Shown here: one piece after another, positions 52,243 to 62,138 of the stretch
How the letters are laid out: the number at the start of each line of letters is the position of its first letter
Numbering within the stretch: the stretch's first letter is position 1
The notes under the pieces: generated by a model
The model's input: the letters and a program-made list of their open reading frames with translations, nothing else
What the model was told of the DNA's origin: nothing
The model's database searches: none
NCBI GenBank assembly: GCA_947444305.1
Contig: CANEZP010000001.1
Span: 82,151-146,150, forward strand
Origin: Pseudobdellovibrionaceae bacterium
GTDB lineage: Bacteria > Bdellovibrionota > Bdellovibrionia > Bdellovibrionales > UBA1609
Direction: 5' to 3'
Length of the DNA: 64,000 nucleotides
Made by a program: the position numbers and the translations under genes

Positions 52243-52740
52243 CTAATTAACGACGTCTGGATTAACGATGGCCGAGCAAAACTCTTTTGAATCGGTCTTC
52301 AGGCCCGCAGCCCCCAAGGCGCGGCAAAGATTTTGGGTGTTGGGGTTCTTGATTGCCGAGCAGTAACCTTGGGGATCGGTTTCCATGCCAGCCCAGCCGA
52401 GTGCGCGGCAAAAATTTTGGGTATCCGCGTGTCCGATGCTGGAGCACCAACCGTTGTGATCACTCTTGAGACCGGCCCAACCGATTGCCATGCAGAGATT
52501 GCGCGTGTCTGGGTTTTCGATCTGCGAGCACCAGCCGTTCTTATCCGTCGCCAAGCCGGTCCAACCCACGGAGAGGCACAATCTTTTGTAGTCTTCGTTT
52601 TTCATGCTCGAGCATAGTTCGTTGGGATTTGCTTTCAAACCCATCCAACCTAAAGCTTCACAAAACTTGCGCATATCTCCGTCTTCGGCGAAGAGCTGAG
52701 GCGAGGTGATTAAAACTAAAATAAGCATAAAGCGGCGCAT
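52243..52740 (-). CDS. Secreted protein of five 28-residue cysteine repeats
   Basis: 165 residues from ATG 52740 (AGGGAG upstream). Signal peptide ends in LFA; the mature protein is almost entirely five tandem 28-residue units beginning MRKFC, YKRLC, TRNLC, TQNFC and TQNLC. Each unit has Cys at position 5 and 21, a GWxGL-like turn and a CS-x-I/M-x-N/H tail. Ten regularly spaced cysteines suggest five disulfides in a solenoid. I do not recognise the repeat. Expected location is periplasmic or surface. Confidence 0.85.
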   Translation of the reverse strand: MRRFMLILVLITSPQLFAEDGDMRKFCEALGWMGLKANPNELCSSMKNEDYKRLCLSVGWTGLATDKNGWCSQIENPDTRNLCMAIGWAGLKSDHNGWCSSIGHADTQNFCRALGWAGMETDPQGYCSAIKNPNTQNLCRALGAAGLKTDSKEFCSAIVNPDVVN

Positions 52741-52888
52741 AAGAACTCCCTGGAAGAACACGTGACGAATAGGCCGGAGTAGCTAAAATGATGCTATATG
52801 TCAAATCCTTTTCGCCAGTTCAAATTTGGAAAGCCCTGAGGAGAAGCATCGGGTACAAAGAGGTAAGCTTTCCACAGGTTAGGTTCGC

Positions 52889-58677: not shown

Positions 58678-59223
58678 ATGAAGCGTTCCACCATTTTTTC
58701 GTTGTCCAAAGTATTGAGCGCCCTCGGCCTAAGCGTGAGCGTTTTTGGCCTCTCCGCGCACGCGATGCCGATCAAATCTCAGATGGTAAAGCCCAGAGCT
58801 TTTTACCAAGAGGCCGATAACAATCTGCTCGAAGCGCTCGATCTGAAAAGCAAAACTCTCTTCTTTGGTAAGGCGGAGTTCGACCAGTGCGGCGCAAATC
58901 TTATGCGTCGGGCCCAAACCCTCGCGTTCTCGTGCACTCTGCCGATACCTTCCGGCGCGCGTATCTCGAAGCTGCAAACTGTATTGAATCCTAAACAGAA
59001 AGAAATCACGTTCGGCGGGACCAAACGAACCGTATTGATGTCGGTGAGCGAAGATGCGCGGCACATTACGCTTTCGACCGCCTTCGACTCGACCGGGATT
59101 GATTTCGACATTTCTAAATTCAACGATGACTTTTTCGCCGTTTACTCTAAAGTCGCGCAACTAATCATCAGCGACGCTTTGAAAGCACAGCCCGTACGGC
59201 TTGAGGTTTTAGAGAGCCGCTAA
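58678..59223 (+). CDS. Secreted protein of unknown function
   Basis: 181 residues from ATG 58678 (AAGGGG upstream); an in-frame ATG at 58630 precedes the hairpin and lacks support. Signal peptide (MKRSTIFSLSKVLSALGLSVSVFGLSAHA). The mature part has two cysteines (DQCGANL, FSCTLPI) that may be disulfide-bonded and beta-strand-like segments. Family not recognised. Downstream is the SKYELIEI-repeat gene. Confidence 0.6.
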   Translation: MKRSTIFSLSKVLSALGLSVSVFGLSAHAMPIKSQMVKPRAFYQEADNNLLEALDLKSKTLFFGKAEFDQCGANLMRRAQTLAFSCTLPIPSGARISKLQTVLNPKQKEITFGGTKRTVLMSVSEDARHITLSTAFDSTGIDFDISKFNDDFFAVYSKVAQLIISDALKAQPVRLEVLESR

Positions 59224-59239: not shown

Positions 59240-59656
59240 GTGCTCAATACCGTCTTCGTCCTTGCCCTGCTTACGATGGGCTTCAGCGCCCAAGCTCAAA
59301 TAAACTGCGCGACGGTATCTTCGCTGTCGAAGTACGAATTGATCGAAGTGGCGCGCACTTCCAAAATCCACATCTGCCCAAGTTCAAAATTTTCTAAATA
59401 CGAACTGATCGAGATTTTGAACGCCGGCGCATCGCTCACGATTCGCACGAGCGACACCCAGCTCTCAAAGTACGAAATGATCGACGTGGTCAAGGCCGGA
59501 CCGGTTTTGCTTTACGTCGATTCGGGCCGCTACTCGAAATACGAGCTTGTCGAAATCGTGAACAACGGCGCGCGCGTAGTGATCCTCAAGGACAGCATTT
59601 ATTCGAAATACGAATTGATCGAAATCTTACGCGCGGGTGCCCGCTTCGGCGATTAG
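59240..59656 (+). CDS. Secreted SKYELIEI tandem-repeat protein
   Basis: 138 residues from GTG 59240 (AAGGAG 6 nt upstream). Signal peptide ends AQA (residue 19). Five copies of SKYEL/M-I/V-E/D-I/V at residues 30, 52, 77, 99 and 122 (spacing 22-25) define a helix-plus-strand repeat: SKYELIEILNAGA followed by a beta-type ARVVILKDSI. The regularity suggests a solenoid. I do not recognise the repeat. Its TAG overlaps the convergent gene's TAA in TTAG (59653-59656). Confidence 0.85.
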   Translation: MLNTVFVLALLTMGFSAQAQINCATVSSLSKYELIEVARTSKIHICPSSKFSKYELIEILNAGASLTIRTSDTQLSKYEMIDVVKAGPVLLYVDSGRYSKYELVEIVNNGARVVILKDSIYSKYELIEILRAGARFGD

Positions 59657-60425: not shown

Positions 60426-60998
60426 ATGTTTTCGTTCACGCGTGCTTCGGCTCTCGTTTTAGTTTCGGTCATTGCGTTCGCGGCTTCCGCGCAAAACTTC
60501 GGGGGCCGTCCCGGTCGCGGCGGCGGCGGCGGTTGGGGAGGCGGCGGTCATTGGCCGGGTCCCGGAAATGGCGGCGGTGGCCCCGGTCACGGCGGAGGAC
60601 GTCCGGGCCGGCCGAATCCTCCGCCTCCCGCGCGAACCGACGTCAATCGCTTCTATACCGGTCACTCGCATTTCTACACGTTGAACGCACAAGAAGGTTT
60701 CAACGCCGGCTTCCGCTTCGAAGGCTTGGCGTTCCAAACTTCGACTTACCAATTCGCGGGCTCGGTGCCGCTCTTCCGTTGCTTCACCGGCACCACGCAT
60801 TTCATCTCGAACGACGGCAATTGCGAAGGCCGCGTGCAAGAAGGATTGCTCGGCTTTTTCGCGCAACGCCCAACTCGTCAAATGCCCCGCGAAGTCGTTC
60901 GCTGCTACAACGGCCAATCGCATTTGATCACCCTAGATCGCAACGAGTGTTACCAAAACCGTTATTACGTTGAACACGTTCTAGGCTACACGTTCTAG
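60426..60998 (+). CDS. Glycine-rich secreted protein with DUF5648-like domain
   Basis: 190 residues from ATG 60426 (AAGGGG upstream). Signal peptide ends ASA (residue 22). Residues 24-70 are a Gly/Arg/Pro linker. The C-terminal region has repeats with TGHSHFYTLNAQEGFNAGFR, EGLAFQTSTY, LFRCFTGTTHFIS and CYNGQSHLITLD, typical of the DUF5648 family (HFYT repeats) found in secreted and surface proteins. Probably surface-associated. The plus-strand frame 60257-60973 is a shadow of this gene. Confidence 0.8.
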   Translation: MFSFTRASALVLVSVIAFAASAQNFGGRPGRGGGGGWGGGGHWPGPGNGGGGPGHGGGRPGRPNPPPPARTDVNRFYTGHSHFYTLNAQEGFNAGFRFEGLAFQTSTYQFAGSVPLFRCFTGTTHFISNDGNCEGRVQEGLLGFFAQRPTRQMPREVVRCYNGQSHLITLDRNECYQNRYYVEHVLGYTF

Positions 60999-61502: not shown

Positions 61503-62138
61503 CTACGCTTTACGAGCGGCGTAGTATTCAGTGAAAAGGCCGGCATCGAAAGCGAAGGGCACGTGTTCGGTGCCGGGGATCGCTTGAATGATACCGACGT
61601 CGAAGCCACCTTCGGATTCTTTGCGCAAGTAATCGGGAACTTCCAAACGGGGAGCGTTTGAAGCTTGGAGTACGATTTGGTTCTCGCGGGCGCGCTCAGT
61701 CAAACCAACTTTTGCACCTTGGGGAACGACGTACGAACCGATGCTCACTTTTTTGCCGTCAACGGTCACGTGACCGTGGCTGCACAATTGGCGGGCGGCG
61801 CGGATGCTACCTGCGAAACCTAAACGGAAAACCAAGTTATCCAAACGGCATTCGAGCAAGCCCATGAGCTTGTTCACCCAGTTGGTCGCTGAACCTTTTT
61901 TGGAGTTACGGATGAAGCGGCGAAGTTGTTCTTCACGCAGACCGTAGTGTACGCGGATCTTCTGCTTTTCTTCCAAGCGGAGTGCGTAATCGGAGTACTT
62001 GCGGCGTTTGTTGCCGTTTTCACCAGGGGGGTAGGGGCGTCTTTCCAAGGCACCGGGTTTGCCCAGGCCGGGAAGTTCTGTTCCCAAACGACGTTGTACT
62101 TTAAAGCGCGCGACTTTACCGATTCTGACTCGTGACAT
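61503..62138 (-). CDS. rpsD: 30S ribosomal protein S4
   Basis: 211 residues, full length. [24 protein letters not shown] at the N-terminus, [33 protein letters not shown] and the S4 domain ([34 protein letters not shown]) are diagnostic. No zinc-binding cysteine cluster is present at the N-terminus (C-minus form). S4 initiates 30S assembly and in enterics also regulates the alpha operon. Here it stands alone, apart from rpsM/rpsK/rpoA. Confidence 0.97.
   Translation of the reverse strand: [211 protein letters not shown]

Follow-up and report, generated by a model that had tools for sequence, protein, structure and literature searches.

A repeat protein of Bdellovibrionota with a proposed helix-capping motif, predicted to form an exported alpha/beta solenoid

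Tandem units that combine a strand and a helix are known from two well-described architectures, the alpha/beta horseshoe of leucine-rich-repeat (LRR) proteins, where most helix-containing forms have units longer than 22-24 residues, and the closed, eight-unit beta-alpha barrel of TIM-type enzymes, for which designed barrels of the sTIM11 type (183 residues, approximately 23 per unit) are also available. Within such units, the sequence S-x-x-E is known from textbook helix chemistry as an N-cap together with its capping box. Here we describe a five-repeat protein encoded in a 64,000-nucleotide stretch of genomic DNA (the window), which is probably an exported, non-enzymatic alpha/beta solenoid acting as a binding scaffold; the fold is predicted, and we infer export, a disulfide and binding. 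What is new here is the family, the capping-box reading of its SKYE motif, its cysteine pair and its gene context in Bdellovibrio.

The five-repeat protein and its SKYE motif

The solenoid protein (59240-59656, plus strand; 138 amino acids) has a GTG start codon closely preceded by AAGGAG, 16 nucleotides after the stop of the upstream gene. Its N-terminus, MLNTVFVLALLTMGFSAQA followed by Q, resembles a signal peptide on inspection (residues 1-19, 59240-59296, with cleavage after AQA placed by eye in a region of low AlphaFold2 confidence) and suggests that the protein is exported. A short N-terminal cap is followed by repeat 1 (59324-59389; LSKYELIEVARTSKIHICPSSK), repeat 2 (59390-59461; FSKYELIEILNAGASLTIRTSDTQ), repeat 3 (59462-59530; LSKYEMIDVVKAGPVLLYVDSGR), repeat 4 (59531-59599; YSKYELVEIVNNGARVVILKDSI) and the C-terminal repeat 5 (59600-59653; YSKYELIEILRAGARFGD), which consists of a helix and a short strand; all lie on the plus strand. 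Repeat 3 is the best conserved repeat in Bdellovibrio, where its LYVD is invariant.

The original prediction of five SKYE(L/M)(I/V)(E/D) repeats was confirmed; their regular spacing also held, with start-to-start distances of 22, 24, 23 and 23 residues in place of the predicted range of 22-25. SKYE begins at residues 30, 52, 76, 99 and 122, and the heptads read, in order, SKYELIE, SKYELIE, SKYEMID, SKYELVE and SKYELIE. Shuffling the mature protein 20,000 times at constant composition never gave a 4-mer in five copies (the maximum was four, seen once). The repeats share 41-58% DNA identity, and different codons are used for 22-83% of the identical amino acids, depending on the repeat pair; this low identity and these codon differences argue against a recent DNA expansion, and the codon divergence indicates that the repeats are old and that the amino acid motif has been selected for.

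In our reading, SKYE combines a helix N-cap and a capping box (S-x-x-E/D) and leads into an amphipathic helix; SKYE would be nearly constant because this element starts each helix, as S-x-x-E here and as S/D/N-x-x-D/E in the relatives. The family unit can be written as [LFY]-[S/D/N]-x-[Y]-[D/E]-[hydrophobic]-x-x-[I/L/F]-x-x-x-G-x-x-[V/L]-x-[I/L], followed by four to six polar residues. The Tyr of SKY is present in the window protein and in its relatives from genomes G206, G169 and G008, and absent in Bdellovibrio; the Asp of the capping box hardly varies at several repeats of the Bdellovibrio proteins (D41, D90, D137, D159), and the G106 member (YYSSDTL) deviates at both the Tyr and the Asp positions. 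Tandem helix-strand repeats of 22-24 residues with an N-cap box place the window protein in this SKYE/SxYD solenoid family, as do a cysteine before repeat 1 and another in the strand of repeat 1. These residues, Cys23 in the N-terminal cap (59306-59308, plus strand) and Cys46 in repeat 1 (59375-59377), are invariant in alignments A2 and A4, and most family members have two cysteines approximately one repeat apart; invariance at this distance suggests a disulfide, which probably ties the N-terminal cap to repeat 1.

Family distribution and gene neighborhoods

In agreement with the original prediction, which could name no family, Pfam and NCBIfam gave nothing above threshold for the window protein, and PDB sequence searches yielded no family; a PDB profile match to proximal thread matrix protein 1 (E 0.001) covers one 51-residue stretch and was set aside. 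The proposed search for the repeat in other genomes recovered relatives across the phylum, and the uncatalogued, probably exported family, with five to ten repeats per protein and N-termini that read as signal peptides on inspection, comprises members in 26 Bdellovibrionota genomes, the window’s included. In 20 genomes of a genus identified as Bdellovibrio (g38), the protein has approximately 200 amino acids and seven repeats, and the gene is present twice in one of these genomes (G064). The family extends to more distant members in G206 (259 amino acids, nine repeats), G169 (approximately 204 amino acids, seven repeats), G106 (273 amino acids, ten repeats), G008, which belongs to the window’s own family (246 amino acids, ten repeats), and G092, where a 111-residue frame reaches the contig edge (L022, L056). 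The ten units of the G008 protein (SSYDARR-type, L099:5078-5818) appear to be a block of five units that was duplicated, with spacings of 21, 23, 21, 25 and 22 followed by 21, 23, 21 and 25. With the window protein as query, phmmer reached members of every one of the four other groups, with scores of 27-74 bits compared to a best score of 14.3 bits among 3,000 shuffled decoys; the window protein is therefore the link that joins the groups. Its own genome holds no second copy, and the protein is absent from the three other genomes of its genus.

Several database matches concern short stretches. DUF3173 (PF11372), a single-copy domain, was matched twice by the G008 relative (27.3 bits, above the cut-off of 25), the best stretch spanning 31 residues around FSSYDARQIVEEGASFY; it was listed neither for the window protein (Pfam, E up to 10) nor for the other relatives tested, and the match is probably a local helix resemblance. 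The match of phrog_15564 to the window protein (6.1e-08) was rejected as a sum of short helix stretches, the best covering positions 2-15 of 58 in the profile, and the profile had no match in the window’s own genome. The match of phrog_27431 to the G106 relative (L023:1075-1893; 1.7e-11 over 59 residues) hints that phages may carry the repeat as well; tblastn of a phage collection with the window protein and its relatives found no phage relative, plasmid and viral-contig searches with these proteins gave no match, and these negative searches leave transport as phage cargo unsupported. No paper on this protein came up in literature searches aimed at Bdellovibrio solenoids or at guessed locus tags (Bd0397-Bd0401); a link to the gliding cluster Bd0411-Bd0421 (PMC12546842) was considered and is not claimed, since the locus number of the Bdellovibrio gene is not established.

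In Bdellovibrio, the solenoid gene lies just downstream of a gene for an M23 peptidase (PF01551, E 4.4e-34) and in the same direction at 15 of 21 loci, as counted by a pattern check; direct reading of two of the loci missed by the pattern added a sixteenth with this order (L064) and placed the second G064 copy (L008/L066) elsewhere, away from any M23 neighbor. At the 15 loci that fit the pattern, the distance from peptidase stop to solenoid start is 62-253 nucleotides, and the peptidase gene is in turn preceded by that of a PP2C-type phosphatase (named from sequence). The conserved order of phosphatase, peptidase and solenoid raises the possibility, which we hold tentatively, that the Bdellovibrio solenoid partners the M23 peptidase in wall remodeling, and that the window relative was recruited to a different secreted-protein locus for a similar wall-binding role. 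The evidence for this partnership is the neighborhood itself, yet the M23 neighbor is absent not only from the second G064 copy but also from the window and from two f12 relatives.

The window locus is a variable stretch between conserved genes. Its left neighbor encodes a 181-amino-acid secreted protein without Pfam match (58678-59223, plus strand), to which related proteins occur in 6 of the 40 genomes searched, in some of them near rpsD; the conserved boundary on the right is an rpsD gene for a ribosomal protein S4-like product (named from sequence; 61503-62138, minus strand). In G003, a genome of the same genus, a chalcone isomerase-like gene and the gene for the 181-amino-acid protein are followed by a 159-amino-acid secreted ORF and the rpsD-like gene, whereas the same interval in the window holds the solenoid gene, a 183-amino-acid secreted ORF, a DUF5648 protein and a 130-amino-acid ORF. 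This difference in content marks the solenoid gene as an accessory gene; a gain here or a loss elsewhere may account for its presence. The ORFs on both sides of the solenoid gene begin in signal-peptide-like fashion, which bears out the cluster of secreted proteins noted earlier. The DUF5648 protein (60426-60998) is itself secreted, with a Gly-rich stretch ahead of the domain (E 3e-08). Other ORFs with repeats were observed as well: a secreted ORF with repeated Cys-containing units on the minus strand of the window (52243-52761; LGWMGLKANPNELC and VGWTGLATDKNGWC); a small, secreted, cysteine-rich 212-amino-acid protein with CY(E/N)(D/E)NKWRGG repeats that adjoins the ten-repeat YYSSDTL solenoid gene in G106 (L100:3726-4364); and, in G092, an ORF in which three CxSRDNDGRxPY repeats occur together with a signal-like stretch (L056:628-1437) beside the contig-edge solenoid fragment, which lies on the opposite strand.

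Predicted fold and alternative architectures

AlphaFold2 predicts a helix followed by a strand in every repeat of the window protein, with a mean pLDDT of 82.9. The helices (residues 31-40, 53-61, 77-86, 100-108 and 123-131) each begin right after the Ser of SKYE, and the strands come after a Gly-Ala turn; the first and last strands are two residues long only. The model of a seven-repeat Bdellovibrio relative has the same helix-strand pattern (pLDDT 86.3), so that both models support the small helix/strand solenoid that had been suggested from the repeats. Foldseek found no match to the five-repeat model in the PDB at E <= 0.001, and a viral fold search had no match at the same threshold; the seven-repeat model matched TIM barrels with TM-scores near 0.4. 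A second structure aligner matched the five-repeat model to TIM barrels and a few LRR proteins (Z 5.4-6.9), and the seven-repeat model to TIM barrels and designed barrels (Z up to 8.8 among the matches listed). As a caveat, structural Z values below 8 may reflect a common arrangement, and such values are common for repeats.

A divergent LRR protein, its typical sequence signature lost, is in our judgment an unlikely explanation. LRR chains match the five-repeat model at lower rmsd than most of the TIM barrels listed beside them: LegL7 (3goz) at Z 6.1, 3.3 Å over 113 residues and 25% identity, SKP2 (7z8t) at Z 6.0 and 3.6 Å, and FBXL17 (6w66) at Z 5.7 and 3.7 Å; yet these values, including the LegL7 Z below 8, are in the range common for repeats, and no LRR protein is among the matches listed for the seven-repeat model. 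Pfam searches at E up to 10 found no LRR family for the window protein, and none was found in its relatives; the LxxLxLxx(N/C)xL segment is missing from the repeats on inspection (strands are, for example, ASLTIRTSD and RVVILKDSI), and the unit of 22-24 residues is shorter than in most helix-containing LRRs.

Well-conserved polar residues of the Bdellovibrio proteins account for 24% of strand positions and 21% of those in the strand-to-helix loop, against 8% each in the helix and the helix-to-strand loop (raw percentages), the strand-end polar residues of the Bdellovibrio protein being S80, D105, N152 and R173; this concentration suggests that the working surface lies at the C-terminal edge of the strands. 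A binding scaffold would fit this pattern best, and an enzyme site, as in TIM barrels, could be placed there as well. The corresponding alternative would be an exported enzyme, derived from or converging on TIM barrels, whose beta-alpha units form an open or complete barrel and whose active site lies at the strand ends; it appears improbable, even more so than a divergent LRR. TIM barrels are the majority of structural matches. The top scores, which bear on the geometry of the beta-alpha units, are Z 6.9 (rmsd 4.3 Å) for the five-repeat model and, for the seven-repeat model, Z 8.8 (5.2 Å) with the designed protein 8kc8; a barrel of the sTIM11 type is among the matches of the five-repeat model. 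However, TM-scores to TIM barrels are 0.3-0.5 with rmsd often above 5 Å, the window protein and its relatives show no recognisable shared set of catalytic residues, and the repeat number varies from five in the window to 7, 9, 10 and 10 recognisable repeats in relatives, which speaks against eight units closing into a barrel and fits an open solenoid. We conclude that the predicted fold is such an open alpha/beta solenoid of loosely LRR-like build; membership in the LRR or TIM families is not claimed. A chance low-complexity stretch with neither fold nor function, a reading consistent with the occurrence of the gene in a single genome of its own genus, is highly implausible and is refuted by the conserved Bdellovibrio relatives; codons that diverge while amino acids stay, homologs across the phylum and confident models also speak against it.

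Proposed role and comparison with described systems

In the proposed binding scaffold, each unit of 22-24 residues would contribute a helix and then a strand; the strands would assemble into one parallel sheet with the helices on the opposite side, the parallel order being suggested by the fold matches. The N-terminal cap strand would be fastened to the strand of repeat 1, probably by the disulfide Cys23-Cys46, and polar residues, both where the strands end C-terminally and in the strand-to-helix loops, would form an edge for a putative ligand, with the protein acting in the envelope or extracellularly. A more speculative joint reading, about as doubtful as the M23 partnership, would combine these elements into an uncatalogued class of exported alpha/beta solenoids, defined by the helix-capping repeat and the disulfide cap, that is a standard envelope component of Bdellovibrio beside the M23 wall peptidase, attaches by its strand-end edge to a ligand of the wall or the prey surface, and has been spreading through the phylum as an accessory gene. 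A repeat family for which no Pfam or NCBIfam entry was found is present in twenty genomes of the genus identified as Bdellovibrio, and its mostly M23-flanked position would allow its role to be probed by gene deletion in a predator amenable to genetics; the short and regular 23-residue unit, with its simple capping-box rule, may also be of interest to designers of repeat proteins.

Among described systems, the phage proteins PHROG 15564 and PHROG 27431, both of unknown function, have local matches to the solenoid family. TIM barrels and sTIM11 resemble the solenoid in their beta-alpha units of approximately 23 residues and in the polar residues at the C-terminal strand ends; the solenoid differs from them in its five to ten repeats, its lack of closure and the TM-scores of 0.3-0.5. 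In contrast to LRR proteins, the window protein has a capping-box helix motif and a shorter unit, and neither the LxxLxLxxN signature nor a Pfam LRR match; it shares with LRR proteins such as LegL7 and SKP2 the tandem array of strand and helix units of 20-30 residues, with a loose structural match at 3.3-3.7 Å.
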